Origin: Prosthecobacter vanneervenii
GTDB taxonomy: Bacteria > Verrucomicrobiota > Verrucomicrobiia > Verrucomicrobiales > Verrucomicrobiaceae
Assembly: GCF_014203095.1 (NCBI RefSeq)
Contig: NZ_JACHIG010000007.1
Coordinates: 248,001 to 312,000 of the forward strand
Reading direction: 5' to 3'
DNA: 64,000 bases
Below are positions 1,993 to 47,684 of this stretch, piece by piece; position 1 is the first letter of the stretch; each line of letters begins with the position of its first letter. The notes under the pieces were generated by a model. The model was not told the origin of the DNA. It was given only the letters and a program-made list of their open reading frames with translations, and ran no database searches. The position numbers and the translations under genes were made by a program.

Positions 1993-2344
1993 GCTGTCGA
2001 AAACAGGCGTTAGGCCTACTTGTGAATAAGAGGGGCATCATTGTCGGTCATCCCCTTCAAAAAAGCTGCCAAATCAGCTCAAAAATAAGCTTTATATTTA
2101 TGGTTTGCTCATTTTTCTTTCGGGGTAAAGAGAGCGGTACGTAAACATTTATTTTAGCAAATGTTCTTATTTTTCTGAATTTCTCCTGCGTTAACTTTCA
2201 CAGGGCCCCGAATATTTCAAAAATCGTCAAAATATGCAGCCAACTTTTTTCTTGTTCTGAAATAATGCCGTCCCTCATACTGGAGCGCCGAAGCTTTATT
2301 CGCTGAATGGCTCATTCGTGCTTCAGCGTACTTTAGAACTCTCT
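1993..2344 (+). promoter_or_regulatory. AT-rich leader/promoter region of the giant surface-protein gene
   Basis: These 352 bases contain no ORF and are much richer in A/T than anything around them, with runs such as TTATATTTATGG, ATTTATTTTAG and ATAATGC. This is the expected place for the promoter of the 25-kb gene. I could not pick out a convincing -35/-10 pair, and no strong Shine-Dalgarno precedes either the ATG at 2345 or the in-frame GTG at 2318. A long untranslated leader is possible. Confidence 0.5.
2144..2165. promoter_or_regulatory. Inverted repeat, candidate operator
   Basis: AACATTT and AAATGTT form a perfect 7-bp inverted repeat separated by 8 bases (ATTTTAGC), about 180 bases before the start of the giant gene. 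The AT-rich, dyad-symmetric form fits a regulator-binding site better than a terminator, as there is no GC stem or T-run. Which protein would bind is unknown. Confidence 0.35.
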
Positions 2345-5300
2345 ATGATTAAGTCACTACGTACCCATCGCAAATCCATCAGCTCAGTAATGATTGGGCT
2401 TATGGCCTTTTGGCAGATTGGACAGCCCGTGTGGGCTGCGACGCTATACTGGGACAGTGATCTTTCAGCCACAGGCAATGCAACAACGGGCACTGGCTTG
2501 GGTGGAACGGGCACCTGGAACAACATCGGCAACGCTGGCTGGTGGAATGGTGTGTCAATCAATGACCAGACTTGGAGCAATTCACTCAACGCTGGCGATA
2601 CGGCAGTATTCACAGGTACAGCAGGCACCGTCACGCTTGGATCTGCCATCACCGCAGGTGGCCTCACCTTCGGTGTCGGCGGCTACACACTGGCAGGAGG
2701 AGGAAACTCCCTGACTTTGAGCGGGACCGGCGGCCTCGTTCCGGTCGTCAATGTCACCACGGCTTCAACGCTGGCCACCATCACCTCCAATGTAGTGCTC
2801 GGTAACAACGTGCTGCTCGGTGGCCTTGGCAATCTCACCCTCAGTTCAGGTGTGGTCAGCGACGGTGGTTCAAACTTTGGTTTTACCAAATTTGGATCCG
2901 GAACCCTCACGCTCGGCGGTGCCAACACCTTTGGCGGTCTGGTGACCCTCGCAGGCGGAACAACGGTCATCTCTGCGGCCAGCAATCTCGGCGGCAGCGG
3001 TGCTTCAAACACTCTCAGGTTCAACGGCGGCACGCTCCAGGCTGCGGGCTCCTTCAGTCTTGGGTCCACTCGCTCGGTCGCCATCGGCATCGGCGGTGCA
3101 GTCATGGACGTCACCAGCACCAACTCTCTGACGGTTGCCGGGGCTCTTTCTGCCATCGGCATTACAGGGAGTGCCACAGCAGCAGGCACGGTCAATCTCA
3201 TCAAAAACAACACCGGCACGCTTGTCCTCTCCAGCACCAGCAACAGCTCGGCACTCGTTAACACCATCGTCAATGCCGGCACGGTCAGCTTCGGCCTCAG
3301 CACCACTCTCGGCGGTGGCTACGTCTTGCTTAATGGCGGCGCCCTGCTCAACACCGCCACCACCTCGACGGTTGCCGGCCAGATCATCAGTCTGGGTGCC
3401 TCAGGGGGGACGATTGCTGCTGCTGCGGGCCAGACCCTGACCGACACCACCGCCATCAACGGTCCTGGTTCACTCACAGTGGGTTCGTCCGGCAACACCG
3501 GCACGGTCAAGCTCAATATCGCTTCCACCTACGCAGGCTCCACCACCGTCGCCTTTGGCACCCTCCAAAACGGGGTCGCAGGCTCGCTCCCCGCCAGCAC
3601 TGCTCTCACGGTTAATTCAGGCGCCACTTTTGACATCAATGCCCTCGCCGTCACCGTCGCTTCCATCAGCGGTTCGGGTATCATCAACAACAGCAGTACC
3701 ACCACCAACGTGCTGACCCTCGGCAACTCAGCCGGGCCCCAGAACACCACTTGGTCCGGAACCTTCAACTCGGCCACGGCTGGCAATATGACCTTGGTCA
3801 AAAACTCAGGCGGCACCCTCACCATCGCTACTCCCACGGCCAGCGTGGGCACCAACAACGGTGCCTGGACGCTCAATGCCGGCACCGTGGACATCAACTA
3901 CACCGTCAACGGCTCTGCCACTGGCAGCATGACCACCGCCCGCGCCATAACCCTGGGCGGCGGCACGCTCAAGGTCACCGGCCGCAGCGGGGCTAGCGTG
4001 ACAGAAACCCTTGGCAACATCACCCTCGGCGCACGCGGCGGACAAATGGTCGTGGCTCCCAGCGGCGGCACGCTCACCACCCTTCAGCTTGGCAGCCTGG
4101 GCGCAGTCACCACGGCAGGCGCATCCTTGCTCATCAATGCCCCTGCATCCACCACGGCGGTTCTGACCTCCACTACCACGCTCGCCCAAAACATCTTGAG
4201 CTTCCGTTCCGTCTACACCAGCGACGGCGTCGCCTTCGACTGGGCCACCAACGGAGGCGTGGCCACCAATCCCATCACAGGTCTTGCTGCGGGCTCCTAC
4301 ACCACGCTGAGCGCCACTCCGGCCGCCGGTACAGACACCAACAACTCCCTGGCAACAGGCACGGTCACCCCCGCAGGGACCATCACCACCAACACCCTGA
4401 AGATCGCCCCTTCGGGTGCCGGCCAGTCCTACATTCTCGGGGCCAATAATCTGGCCCTCACCGCCGGTGGTTTGCTTTTCACCGGTTCCAATGCCTATAG
4501 CATCACCGGCACCACAGGTACCCTTTCCAGCAACTCCGCCACCACGGGAGATCTGGTCATCCATCAATACAGCACAGCCGATCTGACCATCAGTGCCATC
4601 ATTGCCGACGGCACTACTGGAGCCACCGCACTGACCAAGGCGGGCACGGGCCGTCTGATTCTCTCAGGCGCCAATACCTTCACCGGCGCGATCTCCATCA
4701 ACAACGGCACGCTCAGCGTCAGCAACAACAACCAGCTCGGCAACGCCACCTCCGCCACGGTCATCACCCTCAACGACGGCGCCACCTTCCAGACGACTTC
4801 GTCGCTCTCCATCGCCGGCAGTGGTGCGGCTTCGCACACCTTCGCGCTCACAGGCGGCACCGCCACCTTTGACATCGTCGGCAGTGGCACCACTCTCTCC
4901 ATCGCCAGTGCCGTCGGTGGAACCGCAGGCGGTCTCTCACTCATCAACTCCGGAACCGCAGGCTCCATCTACTCCCCCAGTGTCGCCGCCACCTACACCG
5001 GTCAGACGACCATTGGCACCGGCGTCACTTACAAGCCCACGGTGGCCACTTCCCTGGTCGCTTCCGGCGGCACGGTCATCGTCAATGGCTCGCTGGACAT
5101 GAACAACCTCGCGCTCAGCGCCGGTGGCATCTCAGGCGCGGGCAGCATCTTCAACAGCGGGGCGACAGCAGGCGTCATCCTGACCGTGGGTGGCAACAAC
5201 ATGTCCACCACCTACTCTGGCGTGCTGCAGGGAAGCGGCACAGCCGCAAACTTGGCGCTCACCAAAAACGGCTCCGGAGTACTCACCCTCGGGGCTGTCA

Positions 5301-8300
5301 GCCTTTACACCGGCGCCACGATCATCAACAACGGCTACATCCAGCTCGGAGTGGACAATGCCTTGTCCTCATCCTCCACGATCAGCATCATTCCCACCGT
5401 GGCGGGCACAGTTTCTGGCCTTGATTTGAACGGTCGTGCTTTCACCACCGCTCAAACGATCACCTTGGGCGGTACCGGTGCTTCGACCACGGCCACACCT
5501 GTCATCAATCTCAATGGCGGCACCCTGACCTTTTCAGGAGCCAAGGGCATTGCTTTCTCCGCCACCACCAACGTCCTGGGCGGCCAGGTCAACGGCGGCA
5601 CGATCAATCTGACGACTGCGGCGTCTCCCTTCAGCATCGCCAACAGCACCAGCGCTTCGGCAGATTTGACCATCACCTCCAACATCTCCGGTGCCGGCGG
5701 CATCACCGCCACAGGTGCGGGCACACTGGTGCTGACTGGCAGCATTACGGCTACAGGGGCGATGACCTTGAACGGTGCCACAGCAGTCGCAAACGGCACC
5801 TACGCCACCTCCATCAATGGTACAGTCAATACCGGCACTACGAACGGATGGACCTTGGGTGGTGTGGCTGGCAATTCCGTTCTTAATTTGAACCCGGGCT
5901 CCAGCATGACGAGCAACAGCATCACTGTGGGCAACTTCTCTGGTGCCAACGCCGCTTTGAACATTCTTCCGGGCGCCACGGCGGTCATCAATCCAGCTTC
6001 GACGGCTGACGCCAACTTCGCGTTTGGCGCCGTCTCGTCTTCCTACGGCTATTTGAACATGTCAGGCGGCAATGTGAGTGTGGGCCGGTTCCAGCCGGGG
6101 AATGCAGGGACGGGCGTCGTGATGATGTCGGGAGGCACCTTGACAGTGGCAGAATATTTAATCTTCGGACGCTCAACTGGTGCCGGCGCTTCGGTGTCCA
6201 TCACCGGCGGCACGATTGATCACTCTGCCGGGACTCAAAATCTGGCCATCGGATTTGGTGCCACCACAGGCACCTATACTCTCAATGTGTTGGGCGGCAC
6301 CATCATGAACGGCACGGTTCGTTCGGTTTCCTTTGGACAGAACAACGCCTCTGGCGCAACCAACATTGCCAATCTCAACAGCGGAACCCTGCAAACCTTC
6401 AACATCGTCAAAGGCGCGACTGGCAGTTCGACGGCCACCTTCAATTTCAATGGCGGCATTTTGCAGGCGACCGCCAGCACCACGTCATTCATGGACCTGA
6501 CGACCGGTATGACCTTGGCAGGCAATGCCTATGTCAACGCTGCCTTTGGCTCCTACAGTGGTGGGGCCGTCATCGACACCAATGGCTATAATATCACCAT
6601 CAATCAGCCGCTGATCGCCCCCACTGGCAATGGTGTTGTCAGCATCGGCGCACCCGCCACGCAGGGCACTGGTTACATCGGCGCCCCGCTCGTTCTCATC
6701 ACCGGCGGCGGCGGCACTGGTGCCACGGCTATCGCCAACATGGTCGATGACGGCACCGGCTCTGGCACTTTCAAAGTCGCAGGCTTCACCATCACCAATC
6801 CCGGTGTGGGCTACACCAGCACCCCGACCTATACCCTCACCGGTGGTGGAGCAGTCACAGCGGCCAGCACGGATGGCGCCGTCGCTACCGGTGCCAACAT
6901 CGGCGGCGGTCTCACCAAGACCGGCGATGGTACGCTCACCTTGGGCGGGGCCAATACCTACACGGGTGCCACCACGGCAAACTCCGGCACCCTTTTTGTT
7001 TCTGGCTCCATCACTGGCTCTTCATCCCTTACAGCCAATGCCGGTGGCAGGATCAGGGTTCTCGGCAGCGGCTCTATCAGCAACGTGCCAGCCCTGAATG
7101 CAACAGGTGGCACCATCATCATCAGTGGTGCGATCAGCACCCCCTCTTCGATTACGGGTGTCACCGTGAATGGTGGCAGCACGTTGAACATCCTCACCGG
7201 CGCAGGCACAGCTCTCTCCAGTCTCACCACACTCAATCTCGGCAGCGGCGTCGGTCCCGCCAATCTCGGCCTTGAGGCAGGCACCTCCACCGGCACTCTC
7301 ACCTCCAGCAACGCCGCCATCACCACCGGAACAATCAATCTCAATGTCACCCCGATCGCGGGCTTCACACTGGGCAATACCTACAATCTTCTCGCCGCTC
7401 CCAGCGGCCTCAACTCCGCGACCTACAAACTCCTTCTCGGTGGCTACACCTTCACCAGCAGCGTTACCGGTTCCCTGGTCAGCATCACTCCCACCGCAGC
7501 CGTCAATGGCAGCTTCTACTGGAAAGGCGGCCTGGATTCCTCATGGACCACCTTCAGCGGTGCAAACACCAACTGGACCACCGATCTCTCCGGTCTCACC
7601 AATGCCCAGACCACACCAGGATCGGCCAATACCGTGGTCTTCAGCGCCAATGGCCTGAGCGCCACCTCGCTCACCACCACGCTGGACGCTAACGTCTCGA
7701 TCAATGATCTGGTCATCAACAGCAACAGGGGCTCAGGTCCTCTCAATTCGCTCACCATCGCCTCAGGCACTGGCTCAAACACCCTCACCATCGCGCCTGC
7801 CTCCGCCACAGATGGCATCAATGTTCAGACTGGCGCTCCTGCCAGCGTCAGCATCTCCGCACCCGTCTCACTGGGTTCCACTCAGACCTGGACGGTGGCC
7901 GACAGCGCTTCCACGCTCAATGTTAGCGGCCTGATCAGCGGCCTTGCCGGTGTCAGCCTCACCAAAGCCGGATCAGGCACACTGGTGCTCAGCGGGAATG
8001 TTAGCAATGTCTTCGGTGGCAGCGGCACCAGCATCAATGTCCAGGCAGGAACTCTGCAGTTCAGCGCGGACGGTCAGTTGGGCAATTTCCAAAACACCCT
8101 CACCCTCGGCACATCATCAGGTGTCGCCACACTTTCCTACATCGGCGCAAATGCCAGCACCTCCCGCGCCATCGCGCTTGGCACGCTTGCGGGCAGTGCC
8201 AGAGGCGAGACGTTTTCTGTCGCATCCGGAAGTAACCTGACGCTCACCGGCGTCATCAGCGGCGGACCTGCGGCCGGAGCTGCGAATACCGCGTTCACTG

Positions 8301-11300
8301 TCAATGGCGGTGGCACTCTGACCGTCGCGGGCACGAACACCTTTACCGGAAACGTGGTTGTTGACGGCGCAGGCTCCATCTTTTCGTTCAACACCACCGC
8401 TCTCAACAACGCCGATGCCAATTCCACCCTGGGTGCCGCAGGGTCTCATTCCTACACCGTGCAAAACGGTGGCACCATCAGCCTCAGCGGCGCCAGTACG
8501 GTGAATATCACCTCGGGTAGCGGCAAAAGTTTTGTGGTGGGTGTGGGCGGCGGCACCTTCGATGTCGCCTCAGGAGGCACTCTGCAGATGGATGATGCCG
8601 GCCAGTTCGGCATGGCCAGCAATTTGACCAAGACGGGTGCCGGGGTCTTCTGGGTCGGCAATGACTACAGCGCTTCTGTGGCAGCCGGAACCAGCGTTTT
8701 TGTGAACGCAGGCACTCTGCGCGTGGGCAATATCTCCGCTCTGGGTGGAACGGGTGCCAAGGCTGCCATCGTCATGGCTGGAGGCACCACACTTGACCTG
8801 CGTATCAACTCAGGTGGTGTCGTTGGCAACAACGTGACCCTCAATGGAGACATCACACTCAGCTCCGGCCGTGTCACAGCCGCGGCCACAAACATCACCA
8901 TTACGATGGGCGCCCTCTCGATGGGCGGCAATACCATCACAACCTCCAACGGCAATGGCAACACCTCCCCGGCCGTCGCCAACGTTGCCTTCACTTCCAC
9001 CACACTCAGTGGAAACCCCACCTTCAACCTCAACAACGTCAACGGCGTCGGCATCAGCACCCTGGGTCTTGGAGTCTTGAATGATGGCGGTACCGCCAGG
9101 ACCATGACCCTCACCACGACAGGCACCGCCTCGGCGCTTTCCATTGGCGGCGCCACAGCCGGCACCTACACCGGCACTATCAACGTCACCAACGGCACCT
9201 ACCTCGTCCTCGCCGGCACAGGTGCTGCGGGCACTGGCACAGTGAATGTTACCAACGGCACCGTGGTTTACACGGCCGCAAATGCAGCCTCAGGAGCTAC
9301 TATCAACGTCGGGGATACCTCCGGCAGCAGCGCTGCCACTCTCGCTGTCGGCGCTGATGGCACGATCGTCTCAAATCCGTTCGTCATTCGTGATGGCAGC
9401 ACAGGCACCACCACCATCACCACGGTCACCACGGGTACTCTCTCAGTGGCCAATGCAGGCGGTTTCGGCATGGCCCTGGGTGGTATTGGCACCATTTCCA
9501 CACCGATCACCATTGCCAAATCCACCGGCACGGTAAATTTCGGCGCGGCTGCAAACACCACGCTCGTCATCACTGGCGCCGTGGGAGAATCCGGTGGCGC
9601 TAAAACCTTCAATGCCACAGGTCCAGGCGTCGTTTACCTCCTGGGAGACAAGACCTTCACAGGCGGCATCAATGTCACCGGCGGTGCGCTCATCCTTGGC
9701 CCGTCCACCGCCAACTTCACCGGTGCCACAACCATCAATGGTGGTGTCCTCGGCCTGCTGACCACCTACGCACTTCCCGGTGCCATCACCATCGGTTCGG
9801 CCGCTGGCAGCAGCCTGCTCTACACCGGAACGGTGACTACAGATTACAGTTCATCGCTCACCCTCACCAATGGTGGCAACTTCCTGCTCGATGTCATGAC
9901 CAGCGGCAATACGGTCAATTACGCCACCGCTTTTGGCAATGCCTCCACCTCCGGTCTGACCAAGGTCGGCGCGGGTATTCTTGGGCTCAGACCCGCCACT
10001 GGCAGCGAAACCTACACCGGTGCCACCACTCTGGGCGCCGGCACGCTGGCGCTCACTTTTGTCAACGGCGGCACCACCAGCAATATCATCAGCCCCTCCA
10101 GCACACTGCAGCTTCAGGGCGGCATCTTCAGCCTGAATGGCAGCACAGTGGCAGGTACGCCATCGCAGACCTTTGCCAATACCGTTCTTTCCGGTGGTGC
10201 CACCACTCTGACCCTGGTGAAAAATACCTCCACCACGCTCACGCTCAACACCGGCACCCTCACTCGCACCGGCACCGGCACCATCAATTTCTCTACCGTT
10301 CCCGCGAGCACCTCGGTCAATGTAGGCGCGGGCACCACGCTGAATGCCTCGGGCATCCTCGGCGGTTGGGCCACCTACAATGGCACGGACTGGGCCACCA
10401 AGGACGGCTCCAACAACATCATCGCCCTGGCCTCCGGCAGCTATCTGACCATGAATGCGGGCAATGCCAACACAGGCACATCGGCCACAAACTTCACTAT
10501 TGGCGCTGGCACCATTACCCCCACAACCAACAGCGCCATGGCCCCGGGCTCTCTGAGGCTCACAGCCAACACTGCTGCTCTGGCCCTCGGCACGGCCAAC
10601 AGCCTCACCATCAATAGTGTCACTGGCGGCGGCATCCTTTACAGCGCCACCACCGGCACAGGTAGCATCACCGGCACTGCCGCCTTGGCCACCGGTCTCG
10701 GCATGGTCAGCGCAGGCACGTCCACTGGCGGTGAGCTCGCCATCTATGTCAACAGCGGCGGCACCCTCACCATCAGCGCTGGCGTAGGCGGCATCGCAGG
10801 CAGCACGGACGGCTTTGGTATCACCAAGTCGGGTGGCGGTACCTTGAACCTCAGCAATGGAACCACCAGCAACGCCAACAACTACACCGGTGCCACGGTG
10901 ATCAACGGCGGCACCATTTCCATCGACGCAGGCAACCGCCTCGGGGCCGGCACTTCTCTCGTCCTCAATGGTGGCAACCTCACCTCCACCTCCAACTCCA
11001 ACGTCACTCAAAACCTGACCTTGGGACTCAATGGCGGCACCCTGACCTATAACAGTACTGCCAACAACATGAGCCACAGCTCCACCACACCCGTGGCCTT
11101 CCTCGGGCTCGGCAGTCGCACCCTCACCTTGGCGGGTAGCCACTCGGGCCGTATCATGACCTTTGCCTCTCCGCTCGGCGATGGCGGCGGCCCCACCTCT
11201 CTGGTGATCAGTGGTGGCACTGACCAGTCGATCTTCCAGCTCTCCGCAGCCAACTCCTACTCTGGCACCACCAGCATCAATCGTGGCGTTCTCATTGCCA

Positions 11301-20300: not shown

Positions 20301-23300
20301 GCGCCATCACCCTCACCACCGGCACCATTCAGTTCAATGGCAGCTCCAATGGCGGCGCCGCCAGCGGTCTGCTGACTCTCACCGCCGGCACCATCCAGGC
20401 CCTGAACGCCACCCGCAGCCTCTCCAATGCCATCCTTCTGACCGCAGTCACCGTCAGCGGCACGCAGAGCCTCAATCTCAACGGCAAGCTCACCGGTGTC
20501 TCCGCCGCCAGTCGCACGCTCACCAACAACATCGGCGCAGGCAGCACCCTCACGATTGGCAGCATTGATATCAGCAATGACACCACCACTGCCCGCACCC
20601 TGACCATCGCAGGTTCTGGCAATACCACCGTCAGCGGCGTCATCGCCAATGGCGTCGGCACCACCACCAACAACGCGCTGACCATCACCAACACCGGCGT
20701 CACCACCCTCAGCGGTGCCAATACCTACACCGGTACCACCACCATCTCGGCCGGCACGGTCAAAATGGGGGCCAGCTCAGTCATGCCAAACGGCACCGGC
20801 AAAGGCAATGTCTCGATCAACCCCGGCACTGCCGTCACTGCCACGCTCGATCTCAATGGCACCAGCCAGTCCGTCAATGGCTTTGCCAGCAGCGGCGCAG
20901 GCACCACCATTCTCGACAACACCGCCGCTGGCGCCGCCAGCCTCAGCATGGGGGGCAATGACCAGACCAGCACCTTTGCCGGGGTGATCCAAAACACCGC
21001 TGGTGCCATCTCCTTGATTAAAACCGGCACCGGCACCCAGACCCTCAGCAATGCCACCCTCAGCTATTCTGGCACCACCACCGTCAGCGCGGGTGTCCTG
21101 AGCATCACTGGCTCCGCCGGAGCAGCCCTCCAGACCACTGGCATCACCGTTGCAGGCGGTGCCACCTTCAACACCCTGAACACCGTCGGTCAGTCCATCA
21201 ATCTCGGCGCTGGCACACTCAACCTCGGGGCTGGCTCCGGCACCGCCATCCTCGGTATGGAACTGGGCTCCTTCAGCGCCTACGACCGCTACATCACTTC
21301 CGCCGCGGCCACCACGGCCAACACCGTTCAGTTAAACCTCAACTTCCTCGCCGGTCAGGGTGTGGGTACTTATGACCTCCTCACCGCGTCCGGCGGTGGT
21401 CTCAGCAATGCCACCTACACACTCGGCACCATCACGGGTGTCGCAGGTCTCAAAGTCGCCCTCGTTCCCACCACCTCCACCGTCGTGCAGCTCTCCACCA
21501 CGGCCGCCACTGGGGACTTCTACTGGAAGGGAGGCGTCAGCACCAGCTGGTCCGGCGTCGCTTCTGGCACTGGCAATACCAACTTCGCTTCCGACAGCGC
21601 CGGCACTCAGGGCACCATTTCCGCCAATGGCACTCCCGGCGCCAGCACCAGCGTCTATTTCAGCGCCACCGGCATCACCGGCACCACGCTCACTACCACC
21701 TTGGATGCCGCCTTCAGCATCAAGGACCTTACCTTCAACAACATCGTCGGCTCCGGTCCGCTCGGCACCATCAACGTGAATGCCGGCACCGGCGGCTCTC
21801 TCACGCTGACTCCCACCGTGGCCACCTCTGGCATCAATGTGCAGACTGGTGCCCCCGCTGCTCTCGCCATCGGCGCACCCGTCATCCTCGGCGCGGATCA
21901 GACCTGGACCGTCACGGACACGGCCACTACCCTCACCGTCAGTGGTGCCATCAGCCAGTCGGGCAGCGCCTATGCTCTCACAAAGGCAGGCTCCGGCCAG
22001 CTCACGCTGAGCGGCGCCAATACCTACGACGGCGTCACCACCGTCTCCAGCGGTGTGCTGGCTCTCAGCGGCGCTGCGGCCACTCTGGGTTCCACCGTAG
22101 GCGGCACCATCGTCCAGAGCGGTGCCGCCCTGCGCTTGCAGAGCAGCCTGACAGTCGCCGAGAATCTCACCCTCAGCGGCACCGGTGTGGGCTCGGCGGC
22201 AAACTCCTACGGTTCCGTGTTGATGAATGCAAATACCGGCACCTGGACCTTCAGCGGCCTCATCACTCTTTCTGGGGGCGCGTCCTTCGACACCTATCAG
22301 GCCGGTCTCGCCACCATCAACATCGCCCAGGGCATCGTTGGCACAGGAGACTTGACCCTCGCTGGCGGTGCGGCCAACAACGGCTCCACCCTCTACGTGC
22401 TCCAGGGCCAGTCTTCCTACACGGGAGACACCTACCTCACCACCTTCACCTCCCAGGGCATAACCGTTCAAAACGCTGTCAACAACGCCCTCCCCATCAC
22501 CACCATCCTCAGGCTGCAGGCCACCTCCGGCACCACCACCTTTGGCAAATACAAGCTGAATGGCTTCAATCAGGAAGTGGCTGGCATCCAGGGCAGCGTC
22601 GCTGCCAACACGCTCAACAGCATCGTCGGCGGTTCTCCCACCCTCTCCACCCTCACGGTCAACACTAGCTCCAATTCAACCTTCGACGGCCAGCTCGGCA
22701 ACACCGGCACCGACGAAAACAATCTGGGCCTGACCAAGTCCGGCACGGGCACGCTCACGCTTACTGCTGCAAACACCTTTGCCGGTCCCTTGACGGTCAA
22801 AGGCGGCTTCATCGCCTTCAGCAGTGCCCCTGCCACCAGTGGGCCTCTTGGAAACACCACCTCGGTCACTCTCGATGGCGGCGGCATCAGCTACACCGCC
22901 TCCACCACCACCTCCCTGAACCGTTCGGTCGCTGTTGGCACCAGTTCTGGCACCGTGGATGTCGCCAATGCCACTGGCGTCCTCACCATCCCCAGCGTCA
23001 CCAGCACCGGCGGCAGCTTCATCAAGTCCGGTCTGGGCACTGTCCAGATCTCCGGTACCACCACCCTGAACGGCGGCGCTGCAGGCGTCATCGTAAACAA
23101 CGGCACCCTGAAGGCCACCTTCAGCCCCTCCGGCATCAGCACGCTGACCGTCGCAGGCACGGGCAGCATGAACTTCAACAACTCGGTCATCGACACCCTC
23201 ACTCTCGGCAGCGCAGCCTCAGCGCTCACACTTCATGACGGTGCGCACCTTGGCCTTGAGCTCACCAGCCTCGGTACCAACGACAGCATCACCCTCGGTG

Positions 23301-26300
23301 CAGGTGGCACGGCGTCCGTGGATGGCACCATCACCCTCGACTTCTTCGGTTCGGTGGCCGGACTGACCACCTACAACCTCCTCCAATCTGCCAATGGCGG
23401 CCTGAATCCCGGTGGCACCGTCAACTACGTGCTTGGCAACGCACCCAGCGGCTTCAATTATATCATCAATGCCACGGACACCCTCGTCTCCGTCAGCACC
23501 TACATCCTCAGCAATCGCTACTGGACCGGCCAGATCGCGGGTGGCTCCTGGGCTCCGACGGGCTCCACCAACTGGTCCAGCACGGCCGATGGCCTCACAG
23601 ATCCGGGCACAGCACCGGGCAGTGCAGACGCGGTCATCTTCAGTGCCGCCAATGCCCCCTTCACCTCCGCCACCACCATCGCCACCACCCTGGACCAGGC
23701 CTTCGCCATCGACAGCCTCCAGTTCACCAGCGTGCCTGCCTCCATCACCTCCGTCACCATCAGCTCCGGCACTGGCGGTGCCTCCAGCACGCTCACCCTT
23801 GCTCCTGTGAGCTCGACCAACGGCATTGCCGTGGCGGCCAATGGCGGCGCGGTCACCATCAGCGCCCCAGTCATTGCCGCCACCTCGCAGACTTGGTCCG
23901 TGAACGGCACCGGCGCTTCCTCCCTCACCCTCTCCAGCCCGGTCACCTTCACCGGCAGCGTCACCAAGACCGGAGCGGGCGTCCTGACCTTGAATGGCCT
24001 TGGCAGCTCCGGCGCTGGCAGTTTCACCTTCTCCGCTGGAACGCTCAACCTCAACAGCGACGGCGCGCTCGGCACCGGCACCTTCACCATCGGTGCTGGC
24101 ACCACGCTCAACAACACCGGCGCGGCGCTCGCCACGCTTTCCAATAGCGCCCTCAACTTCAATGGCGACTTCACCTTTACGGGAACGCAAAGCCTCAATC
24201 TGGGCACCGGCACCGTGGCTTTGGGAGCCAGCCTCACCGTCACCACTGCTGCGCAGAATCTCACCGTCGGTGGCAATATGAGCGACGGCGGAAACAACCG
24301 CTCCCTCACCAAATCCGGCGCGGGTACCCTTACCCTCGCTGGCGCGAATACCTACGCGGGGCTGACCACGGTCACCGCCGGTGTTCTCAATATCCGCAAC
24401 AATACCGCTCTGGGCACCACAGCCGCCGGCACCACGGTCGCCTCTGGCGCGGCTTTGGAAATCCAGGGCGGCATCACCGTCGGGGCCGAGGCTCTCACCA
24501 TCACCGGCACCGGCATCAGCAACGGTGGTGTCCTGCGCAACATCTCTGGCACTAATGCCTTCGGCGGTCTTGTGACCCTCGCCGGCGCCACTCGTATCAA
24601 TTCCGATTCAGGCACCCTGACCCTCAGCAACGCAGGCAGCATCACCGGGGCCACCTTTGGCCTCACCGTCGGCGGCTCGGGGAATGTCACCATCAACAGC
24701 CGCATCGCCACTACCACCGGCACCCTGAACAAAGACGGCACCGGCACCCTCACCCTCGCAGGACTGAGCTCCACCGCGTCCAGCAACTACACCGGCCTGA
24801 CCACCTTGGACGGCGGCACCACTGCCATCACCACCGCAGCGGCTCTCACCGGCGGCCTCACCATGGGTGCCACGGCTGGCTCTGCCAATCTGAGCTCGCT
24901 CAATCTCGACAATGGCAGCGCCACCTTCACCGGTGCCTTCTTGGTCCAGACCAATGCGGCACTCCCGGCTGCCAACACCATCAGCATCGGCAGCGGCCAG
25001 ACCCTCCGCTTCAACAACGCTGTCACCATCGGCTACAATTCTACCTCCACCTCCACCACCAATCTGACCGTCACCGGAGCGGGCACCCTCACCATCGGTG
25101 CCGCTGGTGCCCCCACCAATCAAAGCGTCCTCATCGGCAATGGCACCACCACCAATATCAGCAACGCCGGTACCTTCGACATGAGCGGCCTCGCCACCTT
25201 CTATGCCAACCTCGGCACCGGCACCTTCCGTGTCGGCCAGGGCACCAATGCGGGCGGCACCGGCACGGCGGGTTCCACGCTCATTCTGGCGGCCAGCTCC
25301 ACCATCATTGCCACCACCATCACTTCAGACTCAGCAGACGGCAACTTCACTCAGACCATCAAGCTTGGCAGTGGCACCAATGAATTCAATGCCAACACCG
25401 TCACCATCGGCGGCTCGGCCAACCGTGCTGTCGGCACTCTCGACTTCAGCGGCTCCACGGGTACGCTTAAGATTCGCAACCTCGCCGGCACCGGGCGTGC
25501 AGACATGAATGTTCAAAGCGGCAACGCCGGCACGGGCTTCAGCATCAGCGGCGCGGTCGATCTCTCTTCCCATGGCGCTGACCTGCTCCTGGGCACCCTC
25601 GGCATTGGCACCCGCAGCGCTGGCAGCGGTGGCAATGGCACGGGTTCCTTCGTTTTCGACACCGGTGTTTTCGATGCCACCACGGTCAATCTCGCCATCC
25701 GCAGCGGCACCACTCTCACTTCCTCTGCCGTCACAGGCACGCTCACCCTGGGTGGCACGACGGTCGGCACCTCCGCCACCATCGGCACCCTTACCATGGG
25801 CTTCAATTCGGCCGGCACCGTGGTCACCACAGGTGCCACCACCGCCACGCTGAATATCAGCGGCTTCGGCACCACCTCCATCACCACCCTGAACATGGGC
25901 AGCAACGCGGGCAGCGGAGCTGCTGGCTCCACCAGCGGCGCTACGGCCACCGTGAATGTCACGGGCAGCACCACCACCATCGGTACGCTCAACATGGCCG
26001 TCAATTCCAACCAGGCCTCCGCTGGCGTCGCCACCACGGCCGCCGCCACGCTGAACATCAGCGCCGGTTCAGTGACCGTCACCAATGACATCAGCATGGG
26101 CAGCACCTCGCTCTTTGCCCAGAACGCCATCAATAATGCGATCAACATCACCGGCACCGGCTCCCTCAGTGTCGGCGGAAACATCGCTTATACCAACGGC
26201 GTCGGCACCGAGACGGTGACCATCACTTTGAATGGCGGTACGCTCGACATGACCAATGGCACCATTGGCAGCTCCTCAACCCCCATCACCTTCAATGCCC

Positions 26301-27757
26301 AGGCCGGCATTCTCAGAAACCTGCTGGAACTCAACGGTGGCGGCACGCTGAACAAGACCACCTCCGGCACCCTGGCTCTCGACACTGCCAACAGCTACAC
26401 CGGTGCCACGACCGTCTCGGCGGGCGTCCTTGCCATCTCCAACGGTGGCGCTCTCGGCGGCACCACCAACGGCACCAGTGTCGCCGCCGGCGGCGCGCTG
26501 CAGCTTTCCAACAGCATCACCGTCACAGGTGAAACGCTCTCCCTTGCAGCTGGCGCGGCAGGAGATGCCGTCCTCAGCAATGCCGACGGTGCCAACACCT
26601 GGACCGGCAGCCTCACCGTCAATACGGGCACAGACGCCTCCAACCGCGTCCGCATCCTCTCCGCCTCGGGCTCCAGCCTGCTGGTTTCCGGCCCTGTCAG
26701 CCTCAGCTCAGGCACCCAGGATTTCGTCATCGGCGGCGCGGGTAATGGCGAGATCAGCGGCCAGATCACCGGCTCTCAGCGCCTCTTCAAGAGCTCTGTC
26801 GGTGCCGGCACCTGGATTCTCAGCGGCGACAACAGCAGCACCTTCACCGGCAAGACCACCGTCAGCAATGGAGCCCTCCAGGTCTCCTCGGAAGCAAACT
26901 TGGGCACCACTCCGGGCGCTTATGTCTCCGACCAGCTCACCCTCGGCGGTGGCAGCACCACCGGCAGCTTGAAGACCACCGCCACCATGTCCCTCAGTGC
27001 CAGCCGGGGCGTCACCGTGGGCGCTGGCGGCGGCACCTTTGAGACTGCTGCTTCCACCACCCTGACGGTCAGCGGTGTCGTCACAGGCGGCGGCACTCTT
27101 GCCAAGGAGGGCGCAGGCACACTGGTCTTCACCGCTGTCAACACCAACACCGGAGCCACCAATGTCAACAACGGCACCCTCGCCGGCACCGGCGCCATCG
27201 GCGCAGATCTCAACGTAAACGCCGGTGGCACAGTCGCTCCTGGCATCACGGCGGAAGGCAGGCTCACGGTCGGCGGCAATCTCACCATCAGCTCCGGCGG
27301 CACCCTCCTCATGCAGCTTGGCGGCGCCACCACCAACGACGCCTCCACGGTTCTGGCGCAGATGAACGCCAGCAACAATCTCACCGGTCTCGTTGGCAGC
27401 GTGCCTTCCTCTTGGACCACCTACGTTCCAGGCACCAACCTTCACGACAATATCCTGGTCAGCGGCTCCTCCACACCCACCATCAATGGTACGATCAAGA
27501 TCGACTCCCTCCTCTACGGCTACACCCCGGTCTATGGCGATGTCTTCAAGCTCGTCGACTGGACGGCTGTCGGCACCATTGGCGGCACGCCGTCGTTCGA
27601 TTACACCTCGGCGGTTCTGGCCGGCGGCCTCTCCTTCAATACTGACCTCTTTGCCAGCAGCGGCGTCATCGTCGTCGTTCCTGAACCCTCCCGCCTTCTC
27701 TTCCTCATGCTCGGCCTCTTCGGCCTCTGCTTCCGCCGCCGTCGCTCGATCCGTTGA
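2345..27757 (+). CDS. Giant exported beta-strand-repeat (PATR) protein with PEP-CTERM sorting signal
   Basis: The predicted product has 8,470 residues, beginning at ATG 2345. An in-frame GTG at 2318 would add nine residues, but the ATG places a clean signal peptide at the N-terminus (basic KSLRTHRKS, hydrophobic core, probable cleavage after VWA at residue 31). The body is very rich in Gly, Thr, Ser, Ala and Asn. It consists of autotransporter-associated beta-strand repeats (TIGR02601-like; e.g. LTKSGAGTLTLAGANTYAG); I count more than 35 by eye, so a long parallel beta-helix is expected. Five W-containing modules (YWDSD, FYWKGG, PKWTG, FYWKGG, RYWTG) lie near residues 35, 1723, 4863, 6392 and 7058. 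The C-terminus has PEP at 8446-8448, a hydrophobic stretch and RRRR, i.e. a PEP-CTERM tail; there is no autotransporter beta-barrel. By eye the only cysteine is in that tail. A surface adhesin or stalk/matrix role is inference. Confidence 0.93.
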   Translation: MIKSLRTHRKSISSVMIGLMAFWQIGQPVWAATLYWDSDLSATGNATTGTGLGGTGTWNNIGNAGWWNGVSINDQTWSNSLNAGDTAVFTGTAGTVTLGSAITAGGLTFGVGGYTLAGGGNSLTLSGTGGLVPVVNVTTASTLATITSNVVLGNNVLLGGLGNLTLSSGVVSDGGSNFGFTKFGSGTLTLGGANTFGGLVTLAGGTTVISAASNLGGSGASNTLRFNGGTLQAAGSFSLGSTRSVAIGIGGAVMDVTSTNSLTVAGALSAIGITGSATAAGTVNLIKNNTGTLVLSSTSNSSALVNTIVNAGTVSFGLSTTLGGGYVLLNGGALLNTATTSTVAGQIISLGASGGTIAAAAGQTLTDTTAINGPGSLTVGSSGNTGTVKLNIASTYAGSTTVAFGTLQNGVAGSLPASTALTVNSGATFDINALAVTVASISGSGIINNSSTTTNVLTLGNSAGPQNTTWSGTFNSATAGNMTLVKNSGGTLTIATPTASVGTNNGAWTLNAGTVDINYTVNGSATGSMTTARAITLGGGTLKVTGRSGASVTETLGNITLGARGGQMVVAPSGGTLTTLQLGSLGAVTTAGASLLINAPASTTAVLTSTTTLAQNILSFRSVYTSDGVAFDWATNGGVATNPITGLAAGSYTTLSATPAAGTDTNNSLATGTVTPAGTITTNTLKIAPSGAGQSYILGANNLALTAGGLLFTGSNAYSITGTTGTLSSNSATTGDLVIHQYSTADLTISAIIADGTTGATALTKAGTGRLILSGANTFTGAISINNGTLSVSNNNQLGNATSATVITLNDGATFQTTSSLSIAGSGAASHTFALTGGTATFDIVGSGTTLSIASAVGGTAGGLSLINSGTAGSIYSPSVAATYTGQTTIGTGVTYKPTVATSLVASGGTVIVNGSLDMNNLALSAGGISGAGSIFNSGATAGVILTVGGNNMSTTYSGVLQGSGTAANLALTKNGSGVLTLGAVSLYTGATIINNGYIQLGVDNALSSSSTISIIPTVAGTVSGLDLNGRAFTTAQTITLGGTGASTTATPVINLNGGTLTFSGAKGIAFSATTNVLGGQVNGGTINLTTAASPFSIANSTSASADLTITSNISGAGGITATGAGTLVLTGSITATGAMTLNGATAVANGTYATSINGTVNTGTTNGWTLGGVAGNSVLNLNPGSSMTSNSITVGNFSGANAALNILPGATAVINPASTADANFAFGAVSSSYGYLNMSGGNVSVGRFQPGNAGTGVVMMSGGTLTVAEYLIFGRSTGAGASVSITGGTIDHSAGTQNLAIGFGATTGTYTLNVLGGTIMNGTVRSVSFGQNNASGATNIANLNSGTLQTFNIVKGATGSSTATFNFNGGILQATASTTSFMDLTTGMTLAGNAYVNAAFGSYSGGAVIDTNGYNITINQPLIAPTGNGVVSIGAPATQGTGYIGAPLVLITGGGGTGATAIANMVDDGTGSGTFKVAGFTITNPGVGYTSTPTYTLTGGGAVTAASTDGAVATGANIGGGLTKTGDGTLTLGGANTYTGATTANSGTLFVSGSITGSSSLTANAGGRIRVLGSGSISNVPALNATGGTIIISGAISTPSSITGVTVNGGSTLNILTGAGTALSSLTTLNLGSGVGPANLGLEAGTSTGTLTSSNAAITTGTINLNVTPIAGFTLGNTYNLLAAPSGLNSATYKLLLGGYTFTSSVTGSLVSITPTAAVNGSFYWKGGLDSSWTTFSGANTNWTTDLSGLTNAQTTPGSANTVVFSANGLSATSLTTTLDANVSINDLVINSNRGSGPLNSLTIASGTGSNTLTIAPASATDGINVQTGAPASVSISAPVSLGSTQTWTVADSASTLNVSGLISGLAGVSLTKAGSGTLVLSGNVSNVFGGSGTSINVQAGTLQFSADGQLGNFQNTLTLGTSSGVATLSYIGANASTSRAIALGTLAGSARGETFSVASGSNLTLTGVISGGPAAGAANTAFTVNGGGTLTVAGTNTFTGNVVVDGAGSIFSFNTTALNNADANSTLGAAGSHSYTVQNGGTISLSGASTVNITSGSGKSFVVGVGGGTFDVASGGTLQMDDAGQFGMASNLTKTGAGVFWVGNDYSASVAAGTSVFVNAGTLRVGNISALGGTGAKAAIVMAGGTTLDLRINSGGVVGNNVTLNGDITLSSGRVTAAATNITITMGALSMGGNTITTSNGNGNTSPAVANVAFTSTTLSGNPTFNLNNVNGVGISTLGLGVLNDGGTARTMTLTTTGTASALSIGGATAGTYTGTINVTNGTYLVLAGTGAAGTGTVNVTNGTVVYTAANAASGATINVGDTSGSSAATLAVGADGTIVSNPFVIRDGSTGTTTITTVTTGTLSVANAGGFGMALGGIGTISTPITIAKSTGTVNFGAAANTTLVITGAVGESGGAKTFNATGPGVVYLLGDKTFTGGINVTGGALILGPSTANFTGATTINGGVLGLLTTYALPGAITIGSAAGSSLLYTGTVTTDYSSSLTLTNGGNFLLDVMTSGNTVNYATAFGNASTSGLTKVGAGILGLRPATGSETYTGATTLGAGTLALTFVNGGTTSNIISPSSTLQLQGGIFSLNGSTVAGTPSQTFANTVLSGGATTLTLVKNTSTTLTLNTGTLTRTGTGTINFSTVPASTSVNVGAGTTLNASGILGGWATYNGTDWATKDGSNNIIALASGSYLTMNAGNANTGTSATNFTIGAGTITPTTNSAMAPGSLRLTANTAALALGTANSLTINSVTGGGILYSATTGTGSITGTAALATGLGMVSAGTSTGGELAIYVNSGGTLTISAGVGGIAGSTDGFGITKSGGGTLNLSNGTTSNANNYTGATVINGGTISIDAGNRLGAGTSLVLNGGNLTSTSNSNVTQNLTLGLNGGTLTYNSTANNMSHSSTTPVAFLGLGSRTLTLAGSHSGRIMTFASPLGDGGGPTSLVISGGTDQSIFQLSAANSYSGTTSINRGVLIANNISALGESNLTFNAGANLGELELNTNGGTTFTRSLGTLPGQVQWLGNGGFSAGAGTATATGSVIVNLGGAGATVTWGAGGFVPTGSALQLNQGAGTTAGTGFNPSIGVVDFQNPIDFGALTTRTIQVENSTYAFTTAGVASNNAAYDARLSGQLTSTSAGGFNKTGAGTLWITGSNNASFLGTLTISNGNVLFKDSTALPVDAAGRLVLSASASGVGGIVLQGATNFSGLYSRVSSSSSGAFNLDVSSTDNINFQSAGFASARFGAFGTIVYQGVFTPGTAGAYKFNGSAGNNIAGGTGLNTLVLPRLNYLSGSSSTLDVGAGTLLLGSSNNFGDATHGVNIQSSTPQVNASGGSNAMVFIASDAALGSGTITLKNAQSANAVNVAAGIASIYGDATLSNNLVIDNTGGLSNFPFVLSGDSTTDAAPQAGRITYTGSLSIVTGSVANIALTPRTTGFTLNGKLSGSTVINITGGASLVQLNNLNNSVAPNDYNGATIFLSSAVTLLIGHDRDLGDTVTAGRTVNFNGSAVFGILPGAGDVTTSANITITENTNNANRTMDVPVGQTLKITSGFAGASARLGQLYTKTGGGTLDIGAILNPGSGASTYGNAGINIAQGTLKADFNNAAAATNIIGLANSVGAPLTLSGGTLLLVGKSSTVNSQAFAALTVNQGASAITLNSAGATLSTTFTSMGTRAAGGTVALTLPSDGPSSVTVSSGLVSQNGLLVDAAGTKSAFMVVGSQGGSITDWAAVSGTTIVTLSSYTPTTGTTISGSATVASGVDTTLAANATADSLRFNLAEARTLTLGSNTLNVGGILVTSSVGASLSKISGGTLTTASGAAAGADLVIYQDNTLSTLNISSSITDNAGNAVALTKSGAGELVLSAANTFSGNLFLNAGMVTFDAVNRLGSGAGNISLNGAVLHYTGAGDVSNTGALTNGSVNVLRASTITVDTGATLSLSGTVTSTLLSPNYQQLTINGGGTVSLDGSSNNVLSVDVVQGTLVLNKSGGNVNAVGINAINVLSNVGLTVEDGARVRLGGDTASGDQILNTTSVQLNGSAIFDLAGHSETIDGLGGSSSSVITNSSAAGAVITVGNSSMALGGSVQFDGVLQDGVGTLGFSMIGGNIFTLTGFNTYSGRTTITGQQFQTSGVYFGGISISSENNLGGNPASFTADQWTLNGGRLVMTDNVTLDASRNNVGITLGAAGGIFEVASGKTFSIASANVIAGTGGFTKEGAGTVVMLGGANSYTGKTILNLGALSISAQGALGANPATAAADQLTFNGGQLITTATLSLSDSNRGISIAGFGGTLTPAAGTTLTLPNVITGAGDLTINGAGTVVLGGTNTPWTGKTILSGGELQISSNVNLGSPPSTVVADQLQISNNAILRLTADMSFNANRGVTIGTGGATINVDASKLATLAGNITLNAGTLAKSGSGVLVLTGTNTAVSGTQVALTAGVLRLGSAGALSVNSNLSLSGSGVIELGNADFTRALGTGSNQVQWTGSGGFGASGAARNVNLGGAGATVTWNSSSFVPTGSALVLSSSTSDNTVTFQNGIDTNGAVRTVQVNDGSASTDAVLSGSLSDSGTGGGIVKTGAGTLSLTGSSTYGGATQVSGGRLLAGAANVFSSSSAFTLDNTSGVVLDLNGSNQSIGSLAGGGTTGGNVSLGSATLTVGGNNSITSYDGVIAGTSGSLTKVGTGSMSLNSAQTYTGATSANGGTLFVNSTLATSAVSVGSTGTLGGSGFIAALTTVSAGGTIQAGDVNGSGSLTLTGGLTFAGAGAINVGRIAEATPNILNIGALTVGAAAGSITINVIANSPSGYSNATPYTLFTYTGGSILGSAGFSAFTLGTIAGTNSRTTGLLADTGSAVTLTLSADNPKWTGFDTTSGLSSSRWAANDTLLGSPVTNWKLIGAGTATSYIEGDVVLFDDSATGSTTVDISDGNVSPSSVTFNNSSAFTYTLTGINGIAGTANLTKSNTGTVVINNTNTFNGGVILNGGVIRLGSSGALGTTNGLLFGANVAAGTKLQINSNSITLAGLNTNATPGSAVVENGGASDATLTLNLQTTGGPPSGDATSNFAGVLQDGATGKLGLTLTGNGSLALTGSNTYTGLTTISGGTLQIGAGGAGGSLVGDGGITNNAVLIFNRTGSYGYTGNITGSGTTQVTGGGTLTLTGSLGSTGGTTIDSTNTLNVGNGGAGGSISGNIINNGALKFNTTSTGLLVSGDITGSGTFENISGVTILAGTNSFGTGSSTTITGGTLQIGNGGTTGSITGNILDNGVLAFSRSDSSTFAGNISGSGSVFINMSSPTAVKTLSGSNSYSGGVTVAQGVLALGSATAVPSGSAVVVGAAGTSGTFDLNGFNLTVSSLATAGNAPDQTITNNSSTTNSTLTYNSAGTSTFGGLVSNGASRSVAISITGGGTLVLADTNTYSGGTTVSQGTVQLGANGGLGIGSLTLGLGATNGVLDLSGFNQTVASIAVGAGANAASQTVGNSSTTSDSIFSINGTSQFGGVIQDVLGSGTRTTGLTIVAGTTTLTNANTYTGVTQINSGATLQLGSGGTTGSLSNGTTITDNGSLSFNRSDTVSFGAVVSGSGGLQHLGSGLLELTGANSYDGVTLVNNASGTLKASGTNTSDIGGTTLNAGTLLLNNTGASNGGLAGGTIIINSGTIDNITGAALTLSQNNVVTLGGSFTFTGSNDLNFGTGAVNNSVAAETITIGGTARTLTLGAMTNTTGNNTNTITVNGAGNTLVLGSYALSNNATSRVDVINGSANVIINGPVTNGGTSTAGGLTYSGTGTITLNGASNYGGTTTLTTGNIIFNGSNSGTGATTLTAGTMQFGGAVNGGIATTGTLTLTAGTISAVGGARTISNPTLFTAVTVAGSQSLTMSGNFTIVNAAVRTITNNISGGGTLTIGQAGSSVFLSNSLTVNGGLTIAGTASTTILGDIKDANGAGLSSAVTISTTGAGATTTLAGASTYTGLTTMNASTGILVLSGSNSSSGAITLTTGTIQFNGSSNGGAASGLLTLTAGTIQALNATRSLSNAILLTAVTVSGTQSLNLNGKLTGVSAASRTLTNNIGAGSTLTIGSIDISNDTTTARTLTIAGSGNTTVSGVIANGVGTTTNNALTITNTGVTTLSGANTYTGTTTISAGTVKMGASSVMPNGTGKGNVSINPGTAVTATLDLNGTSQSVNGFASSGAGTTILDNTAAGAASLSMGGNDQTSTFAGVIQNTAGAISLIKTGTGTQTLSNATLSYSGTTTVSAGVLSITGSAGAALQTTGITVAGGATFNTLNTVGQSINLGAGTLNLGAGSGTAILGMELGSFSAYDRYITSAAATTANTVQLNLNFLAGQGVGTYDLLTASGGGLSNATYTLGTITGVAGLKVALVPTTSTVVQLSTTAATGDFYWKGGVSTSWSGVASGTGNTNFASDSAGTQGTISANGTPGASTSVYFSATGITGTTLTTTLDAAFSIKDLTFNNIVGSGPLGTINVNAGTGGSLTLTPTVATSGINVQTGAPAALAIGAPVILGADQTWTVTDTATTLTVSGAISQSGSAYALTKAGSGQLTLSGANTYDGVTTVSSGVLALSGAAATLGSTVGGTIVQSGAALRLQSSLTVAENLTLSGTGVGSAANSYGSVLMNANTGTWTFSGLITLSGGASFDTYQAGLATINIAQGIVGTGDLTLAGGAANNGSTLYVLQGQSSYTGDTYLTTFTSQGITVQNAVNNALPITTILRLQATSGTTTFGKYKLNGFNQEVAGIQGSVAANTLNSIVGGSPTLSTLTVNTSSNSTFDGQLGNTGTDENNLGLTKSGTGTLTLTAANTFAGPLTVKGGFIAFSSAPATSGPLGNTTSVTLDGGGISYTASTTTSLNRSVAVGTSSGTVDVANATGVLTIPSVTSTGGSFIKSGLGTVQISGTTTLNGGAAGVIVNNGTLKATFSPSGISTLTVAGTGSMNFNNSVIDTLTLGSAASALTLHDGAHLGLELTSLGTNDSITLGAGGTASVDGTITLDFFGSVAGLTTYNLLQSANGGLNPGGTVNYVLGNAPSGFNYIINATDTLVSVSTYILSNRYWTGQIAGGSWAPTGSTNWSSTADGLTDPGTAPGSADAVIFSAANAPFTSATTIATTLDQAFAIDSLQFTSVPASITSVTISSGTGGASSTLTLAPVSSTNGIAVAANGGAVTISAPVIAATSQTWSVNGTGASSLTLSSPVTFTGSVTKTGAGVLTLNGLGSSGAGSFTFSAGTLNLNSDGALGTGTFTIGAGTTLNNTGAALATLSNSALNFNGDFTFTGTQSLNLGTGTVALGASLTVTTAAQNLTVGGNMSDGGNNRSLTKSGAGTLTLAGANTYAGLTTVTAGVLNIRNNTALGTTAAGTTVASGAALEIQGGITVGAEALTITGTGISNGGVLRNISGTNAFGGLVTLAGATRINSDSGTLTLSNAGSITGATFGLTVGGSGNVTINSRIATTTGTLNKDGTGTLTLAGLSSTASSNYTGLTTLDGGTTAITTAAALTGGLTMGATAGSANLSSLNLDNGSATFTGAFLVQTNAALPAANTISIGSGQTLRFNNAVTIGYNSTSTSTTNLTVTGAGTLTIGAAGAPTNQSVLIGNGTTTNISNAGTFDMSGLATFYANLGTGTFRVGQGTNAGGTGTAGSTLILAASSTIIATTITSDSADGNFTQTIKLGSGTNEFNANTVTIGGSANRAVGTLDFSGSTGTLKIRNLAGTGRADMNVQSGNAGTGFSISGAVDLSSHGADLLLGTLGIGTRSAGSGGNGTGSFVFDTGVFDATTVNLAIRSGTTLTSSAVTGTLTLGGTTVGTSATIGTLTMGFNSAGTVVTTGATTATLNISGFGTTSITTLNMGSNAGSGAAGSTSGATATVNVTGSTTTIGTLNMAVNSNQASAGVATTAAATLNISAGSVTVTNDISMGSTSLFAQNAINNAINITGTGSLSVGGNIAYTNGVGTETVTITLNGGTLDMTNGTIGSSSTPITFNAQAGILRNLLELNGGGTLNKTTSGTLALDTANSYTGATTVSAGVLAISNGGALGGTTNGTSVAAGGALQLSNSITVTGETLSLAAGAAGDAVLSNADGANTWTGSLTVNTGTDASNRVRILSASGSSLLVSGPVSLSSGTQDFVIGGAGNGEISGQITGSQRLFKSSVGAGTWILSGDNSSTFTGKTTVSNGALQVSSEANLGTTPGAYVSDQLTLGGGSTTGSLKTTATMSLSASRGVTVGAGGGTFETAASTTLTVSGVVTGGGTLAKEGAGTLVFTAVNTNTGATNVNNGTLAGTGAIGADLNVNAGGTVAPGITAEGRLTVGGNLTISSGGTLLMQLGGATTNDASTVLAQMNASNNLTGLVGSVPSSWTTYVPGTNLHDNILVSGSSTPTINGTIKIDSLLYGYTPVYGDVFKLVDWTAVGTIGGTPSFDYTSAVLAGGLSFNTDLFASSGVIVVVPEPSRLLFLMLGLFGLCFRRRRSIR
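11340..11700 (+). repeat. Intragenic module copy 1 (QVQW / GAGATVTW unit)
   Basis: Within the giant gene this segment encodes RSLGTLPGQVQWLGNGGF followed by VNLGGAGATVTW and FVPTGSAL. The same order of motifs recurs about 4.4 kb downstream at 15731-16005. The copies agree in spacing and key residues, which indicates duplication inside the gene rather than generic repeat similarity. Confidence 0.75.
14767..15620 (+). repeat. Three tandem ~100-residue units within the giant gene
   Basis: Units begin near 14767, 15076 and 15373, about 103 and 98 codons apart. Each follows the order S-x-LG-(A/G)NP-A-DQ, then a Gly/Thr strand block with NRG(I/V)(S/T)I, then a KEGAGTVV-type repeat and TGKTIL. A fourth, isolated copy lies near the 3' end (about 26878-27130, with DQLTLGGGSTTG and SRGVTVGAGGG). 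Confidence 0.75.
15731..16005 (+). repeat. Intragenic module copy 2 (QVQW / GAGATVTW unit)
   Basis: This is the partner of the module at 11340-11700. It encodes RALGTGSNQVQWTGSGGF, then VNLGGAGATVTW and FVPTGSAL, followed by a FQNGID segment that matches FQNPID in copy 1. Confidence 0.75.
19729..20565 (+). repeat. Pair of related ~90-residue units within the giant gene
   Basis: The unit at about 19729-20046 (IIFNGSNSG, TLTLTAGTI, FTAVTVAGSQSL, TNNISGGGTLTIG) is repeated at about 20303-20565 (IQFNGSSNGG, LLTLTAGTI, LTAVTVSGTQSL, TNNIGAGSTLTIG). They are separated by an unrelated stretch of roughly 85 codons. Confidence 0.75.
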
Positions 27758-42475: not shown

Positions 42476-42753
42476 TCCGGCCGCACGTCCCTGCCGCTCC
42501 CCCACGCCCCCACGCCCCACCGCGTCCTCATCGCCATTTCCAATTCAAGGCCCCGTAAAATGAATCTACCCCCAATCATTTTACCATTCTCGCCCGCTTT
42601 CGGCAGCACCACTCCACCAGGTGCATTTTAGATACATCGTTGTGCGCGTCCTTGCCACACACCCTGACAGATTCCCCCCTCGCGCTTTGTAAACCTCAGC
42701 GCCCCCATTCCCCCATGCCTTCCCCCTGTCTCTGCAGAGCCCAGGCTCGTCCC

Positions 42754-45273: not shown

Positions 45274-45363
45274 AAAGATCCCGAGCATCCCCAAAAAGGA
45301 CCACCTTTTTCCACCCCGATGTCAAAAGCTCCAGGATTACCGCAAGTGCGCCAGCATAGTGGT

Positions 45364-45383
45364 CCGCACAGTCCCCTGTGCGG
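45364..45383. repeat. Hairpin CCGCACAG, loop TCCC
   Basis: CCGCACAG and CTGTGCGG form a perfect 8-bp stem around TCCC. The 17 bases in front, TGCGCCAGCATAGTGGT, are identical at 48097-48113, where the same stem has a TCCT loop. Confidence 0.8.
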
Positions 45384-45500
45384 CACTCCGCTATCTCCCT
45401 CCCGCTCCGCTTTTCACTGAAAGCACTCAATGTAACCACAGAGCCGGTTCTCCAACACGTTGCTGAAGCAAGAACACGAATCACTAAACCTCTGCGTCCT

Positions 45501-47626: not shown

Positions 47627-47662
47627 CACAGCCATACCCCCCCAGGCCAGCGCATGGAAGTA

Positions 47663-47684
47663 CGACAGACACTCCTGTCTGTCG
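47663..47684. repeat. Hairpin CGACAGACA, loop CTCC
   Basis: CGACAGACA (47663-47671) and TGTCTGTCG (47676-47684) form a perfect 9-bp stem around CTCC, 36 bases after the DUF1552 stop. It is a possible transcript-end hairpin without a T-tract. Confidence 0.8.

Follow-up and report, generated by a model that had tools for sequence, protein, structure and literature searches.

The window, which is the whole stretch of 64,000 nucleotides of Prosthecobacter vanneervenii analyzed here, contains one giant gene whose product combines autotransporter-type (PATR) repeats with a PEP-CTERM sorting tag. This locus raises the questions of whether such a long frame is genuine, whether the protein is one of a kind and by which route it might leave the cell.

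Integrity of the giant gene

A preliminary description of this DNA had proposed a single uninterrupted frame of about 25.4 kb occupying 40% of the window. Both statements held on reanalysis, as the frame measures 25,413 bp, or 39.7% of the window, and ends at position 27757 of the + strand. There are two candidate starts, a GTG at 2318 and an ATG at 2345; the latter coincides in the alignment with the start of the ortholog of a sister species and yields a protein of 8,470 aa. The chance of a stop-free run of 8,470 codons at about 61% GC, calculated from base composition, is ~e^-263. The residues G, T, S, A and N make up 64% of the protein, and its one Cys is located in the tail.

The genome is a draft of 33 contigs and the protein is repetitive, features that would speak for an artifact of assembly, with repeats collapsed or chimeric, or for a functionless gene in decay. 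We attach very little probability to this explanation. The longest exact direct repeat within the gene is just 22 bp, indicating that collapse of repeats is unlikely; the gene contains no Ns and does not show long units arrayed in tandem. Furthermore, the same gene is present end to end in a separate assembly from the sister species of the same genus (G001), where a colinear frame of 8,489 codons aligned one-to-one with the giant in one single alignment (1-8453). Assembly collapse was rejected on the basis of the 22-bp repeat limit and this ortholog. The two proteins exhibited 77.5% identity across 8,429 aligned residues, with 48 indels of up to 22 aa each, while the short noncoding flanks, unlike the gene, had no obvious similarity when compared side by side.

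Identities at the three codon positions were 0.83, 0.88 and 0.55. A dN of 0.156 and a dS of 0.956 gave a dN/dS of about 0.16, which is approximate since dS is near 1 and thus close to saturation. Flanking genes of the same species pair had ratios of 0.06 to 0.17, indicating that the giant is under purifying selection of an ordinary level for these species. The strong selection that had been deduced from the unbroken frame has, therefore, now been measured over the whole frame, within the approximation of this ratio. The giant gene is intact and under selection.

Gene content downstream of the giant is kept in the sister species (a Band_7 pair, an epimerase, a dehydrogenase and an SDR gene), while the upstream TPR gene had no match within the G001 stretch compared. 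The two adjoining Band_7 (SPFH) genes, at 28816-30863 of the window on the minus strand, have overlapping start and stop codons and lie beside the giant in both species. Elsewhere in the window (42640-53884), PSCyt/PSD and DUF1552 genes of planctomycete type are clustered. This cluster includes a histidine kinase (48128-50257) that carries F5/8 type C domains, next to which lies a LuxR-type response regulator (50254-50886).

Repeats, modules and sorting tag

The features of the gene are as follows (positions in the window).

2345..27757, + strand: giant PATR/PEP-CTERM gene, 8,470 aa; open frame and colinear ortholog in the sister species
2345..2437, + strand: putative signal peptide, aa 1-31 (MIKSLRTHRKSISSVMIGLMAFWQIGQPVWA); inspection and alignment
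2438..2992, + strand: N-terminal cap, aa 32-216, W-rich (YWDSDLSATGN..GLGGTGTWN..WWNG); about 40-48% identity among giants of the genus
2885..27181, + strand: PATR repeat region, aa 181-8279, 38-44 repeats; Pfam, NCBIfam and trained profile
4142..4744, + strand: 'DWA' module D1, aa 600-800; homologous to D2 and D3 (E 2e-13)
7508..7924, + strand: internal W-rich header H2, aa 1722-1860; homology with both H4 (E 3e-30) and H5 (E 1e-21)
10322..10954, + strand: 'DWA' module D2, aa 2660-2870; direct module comparison
13502..14014, + strand: 'DWA' module D3, aa 3720-3890; direct module comparison
16931..17314, + strand: W-rich segment H3, aa 4863-4990, perhaps a header that has diverged; inspection only
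21512..21934, + strand: internal W-rich header H4, aa 6390-6530; direct module comparison
23513..23914, + strand: internal W-rich header H5, aa 7057-7190; direct module comparison
26801..27676, + strand: C-terminal cap ahead of the sorting tag, aa 8153-8444; 32-58% identity among giants
27677..27745, + strand: PEP-CTERM sorting tag (PEP motif, hydrophobic helix, RRRR); TIGR02595 and PF07589, conserved in the ortholog

The putative signal peptide noted previously has typical n, h and c regions by inspection and is conserved in alignments with other giants, which have the pattern MKxLRxYR....LMAxWQ...PLQAAT in common throughout the genus. At the opposite end, the protein is 58% identical to the C-terminal end of an 8,399-aa paralog. 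Strong stretches matching PF12951 of Pfam were detected in numbers of 6, 8 and 8 (22 in all), and those matching TIGR02601 in numbers of 4, 9 and 8. With a PATR profile built solely from other proteins of the same genome, the repeat count was 44 at a threshold of ≥5 bits and 38 at ≥8 bits. Not one repeat was detected in 20 shuffled versions of identical composition, so that an earlier count by eye of more than 35 repeats was correct.

These repeats are located between the W-rich headers and the 'DWA' modules. Direct comparisons of excised modules revealed mutual homology among H2, H4 and H5 (E 1e-15 to 3e-30) and among D1, D2 and D3 (E 8e-6 to 2e-13), while H3 did not match any of these headers significantly. 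A self-comparison of the whole protein listed no pair at E 1e-12; recent internal duplication was accordingly rejected as the source of the length. The absence of such pairs, despite the homology of the modules, indicated an old and diverged expansion.

The tail (VVVPEPSRLLFLMLGLFGLCFRRRRSIR) passed both curated cutoffs for PEP-CTERM, with 24 bits for TIGR02595 (cutoff, 16) and 21.6 bits for PF07589 (cutoff, 20.7), and a helix was predicted at the tag in an AlphaFold tile. No match to the PF03797 barrel was detected anywhere in the protein, and all seven PF03797 barrels of the genome lie outside this gene. An autotransporter with a hidden barrel was rejected on these grounds. The reported combination of repeats with a PEP-CTERM tail and no barrel was thus confirmed and, due to the absence of a C-terminal barrel, the giant is not classed as a type Va autotransporter. 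It has the same repeat family as PATR autotransporters of this type (PF12951/TIGR02601), such as Brucella BmaA, BmaB and BmaC, and presumably the same beta-helical type of passenger, but ends in a PEP-CTERM tag rather than a PF03797 barrel and has about 40 repeats, whereas BmaA and BmaB are reported to have 5-6 (PMC8111173).

Structure prediction, which had been suggested as a check, was applied to two tiles. The tile of aa 7970-8470 (two sequences) had a mean pLDDT of 67 and a pTM of 0.71; short strands follow one another in a solenoid-like manner through its first 340 residues, and its cap is poorly predicted. The tile of aa 7050-7600 (seven sequences) had values of 60 and 0.65. Both were all-beta with solenoid-like spacing, at moderate to low confidence. 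Foldseek detected no significant match to the PDB; the top matches included autotransporter passengers (antigen 43, IgA1 protease and EspC), with a lowest E of 0.015 and TM-scores of ~0.2, and hence the fold is assigned mainly from the repeat family. On these models, a long fiber is a plausible form for the protein.

A genus-wide family of giants

The preliminary description had treated this gene as a singular object, a view that did not survive comparison with the rest of the genome and the genus. Among the best 150 matches in this genome, which set a lower bound, there were 19 PATR frames (sizes measured stop to stop), 15 with PEP-CTERM, 2 with a PF03797 barrel (5,528 and 2,074 aa) and 2 with neither (4,693 and 1,191 aa). 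The listed PEP-CTERM frames were of 11,644, 10,204, 8,722, 8,498, 8,399, 7,942, 3,703 and 3,133 aa, together with smaller ones; six of these, the protein of this locus among them, are giants of 7.9-11.6 kaa, and the first three are larger than the protein studied here. Congeners contain PEP-CTERM frames of up to 14,657 aa. PATR repeats with PEP-CTERM and no barrel are, therefore, usual in this genome and found across the genus, and a singular giant was ruled out.

The barrel-bearing counterpart of the giant is the 5,528-aa PATR protein at G000:C21:20625-37211 (L037 2626-19212), which has a C-terminal PF03797 barrel and PATR matches every ~603 bp along part of its length. The C terminus of the 4,693-aa protein (L038 5740-19821, G000:C1) resembles, by eye, a beta-propeller-type repeat.

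The paralogous giants of the genus (about 8-14.7 kaa) resemble the giant in signal-peptide pattern, N-cap, PATR content, C-cap and PEP-CTERM tag. Only the caps and scattered blocks can be aligned between paralogs, whereas the ortholog aligns in one piece and is the only protein with which the interior of the giant is alignable over long stretches. The giant belongs to a genus-wide expanded family of a known but little-studied kind.

In a sample of the phylum with 115 genomes from 63 genera, 45 genomes and 31 genera had PATR matches at E 1e-9; outside this genome, the frames among the matches listed were mostly shorter than ~3,500 aa. A 3,238-codon frame similar to the giant in an Opitutaceae MAG (L082 1410-11123) has a PEP-CTERM-like tail (APEPSTYGAIMVAGALGLLGYRRWRAARP), indicating that this architecture reaches beyond the Verrucomicrobiaceae. 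In another family of the same class, a genome of 2.3 Mb encodes a PATR frame of 17,232 aa (G127:C2, around 142-23574).

Verrucomicrobium spinosum, the bacterium from which PEP-CTERM was originally described, has 65 such proteins and two genes for EpsH (Haft et al. 2006, PMC1569441). As in PEP-CTERM/exosortase (EpsH) systems (TIGR02595/PF07589), the giant has a putative signal peptide and a C-terminal PEP-hydrophobic-basic tag and its genome encodes exosortases and EPS genes, but it is far longer than the non-PATR PEP-CTERM frames of this genome (61-750 aa). Parts of the PVC superphylum are enriched in huge proteins (PMC11573180), and the giant is similar to the giant genes of PVC bacteria and Omnitrophota in being a single frame of >5,000 codons, probably extracellular, from the same superphylum (PMC11573180, PMC10066038, PMC12057145). 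Two of these reports stress other extracellular domains and mention neither PEP-CTERM nor autotransporter repeats (PMC11573180, PMC12057145). A limited literature search, which is no proof of absence, found nothing on giant PATR/PEP-CTERM proteins, on PEP-CTERM combined with the beta strand repeat or on giant genes with PEP-CTERM.

Exosortases and the route out of the cell

The exosortase route proposed in the preliminary description calls for such an enzyme somewhere in the genome, and three were found. Two exceeded the TIGR02602 cutoff: a 321-aa protein on contig C13, sited in a glycosyltransferase/exopolysaccharide cluster with several GT4 glycosyltransferases, a WecG/TagA/CpsF glycosyltransferase and an EpsI-like gene, and a 623-aa protein fused to an EpsI-like domain (G000:C1:1147656). 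The third, of XrtU type (C2), adjoins a small protein with a PEP-CTERM-like tail. Inspection of all three located Cys, Arg and His, which we take to be the catalytic residues, at the expected places.

Exosortase and PEP-CTERM were both present in 23 of 26 related genomes and both absent from 3, with no exception, although these genomes, being related, do not amount to 26 independent tests. Two of the three relatives lacking an exosortase had no PATR match; the other, G018, had five, and two of its three PATR frames (2,030 and 21,153 aa) combine the repeats with a barrel. The 21,153-aa frame with its PF03797 barrel lies on G018:C1 around 47047-63459, in a genome without exosortase or PEP-CTERM matches. 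In G007, G010 and G014, the sole exosortase listed is of the EpsI-fused length (568-598 aa), and G010 has a 4,655-aa PEP-CTERM frame matching the N terminus of the giant. By elimination, these genomes point to the EpsI-fused form as the enzyme that may process the giant, an argument that is no more than suggestive, given that the three genomes are 93-95% complete.

We consider it probable that the giant is a Sec-exported beta-solenoid fiber that is processed by an exosortase and tied to the cell surface or matrix. The signal peptide would direct Sec export of this non-enzymatic structural protein, and the PEP/hydrophobic/RRRR tail would anchor its C terminus in the inner membrane until cut by an exosortase of that membrane. 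This enzyme, for which the 623-aa EpsI-fused form is the most likely candidate, would then hand the protein to the exopolysaccharide matrix or the cell surface. Delivery outside the cell by an exosortase is plausible. The ~40 PATR repeats, interleaved with W-rich and 'DWA' modules, would form a long rod, of the order of 150-200 nm if all of it were solenoid (20-25 aa per turn, 0.48-nm rise). We infer this fold, and likewise the processing, the crossing of the outer membrane, the surface location and the adhesion, from the features described above; attachment, aggregation or matrix building is a plausible role for such a fiber. In other bacteria, loss of the exosortase abolished biofilm formation and impaired polysaccharide adhesion (Nostoc, PMC12188702), and floc formation involves a PEP-CTERM gene (PMC9850573).

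PATR repeats are usually viewed as helpers of barrel-driven secretion. A separate barrel or two-partner-like translocator might, hence, carry the array across the outer membrane in trans, with PEP-CTERM only delaying release and the exosortase not being the main route; several of the seven PF03797 barrels in the genome are on short proteins of 514-572 aa that could be imagined in this role. We regard this as quite unlikely, as no barrel gene is adjacent to the giant gene and four relatives (G005, G010, G015 and G016) have frames matching the giant, as well as PEP-CTERM tails, but no PF03797 match, indicating that a PF03797 barrel in trans is not required.

We know of no outer-membrane route for a PEP-CTERM protein of such size. 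Retention of the protein, which would then form a structural layer of the periplasm or inner membrane rather than a surface fiber, would avoid this difficulty. In Akkermansia, nine of 23 predicted PEP-CTERM proteins were observed by mass spectrometry, and PEP-CTERM proteins reached higher levels in intracellular fractions than in those of the outer membrane (PMC4960237). A surface location should, therefore, not be assumed. Retention nevertheless appears unlikely: a straight rod of this length would not be expected to fit across the periplasm, and loss of the exosortase in Nostoc altered the exoproteome (PMC12188702).

It is conceivable, although we hold this more in doubt than not, that this lineage has uncoupled the autotransporter-type passenger from its barrel on a large scale, with an expanded family of very large beta-solenoid fibers handed to exosortase, a surface built of exosortase-processed rods and a non-barrel route moving solenoids of 8-15 kaa across the outer membrane. 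The presence in one genome of the same repeat family with two alternative C termini (at least 15 PEP-CTERM and at least 2 barrel frames) is a natural experiment bearing on the separate contributions of the PATR repeat and the exosortase tag, and the family of giants puts to the test how exosortase substrates of such extreme length leave a Gram-negative cell.
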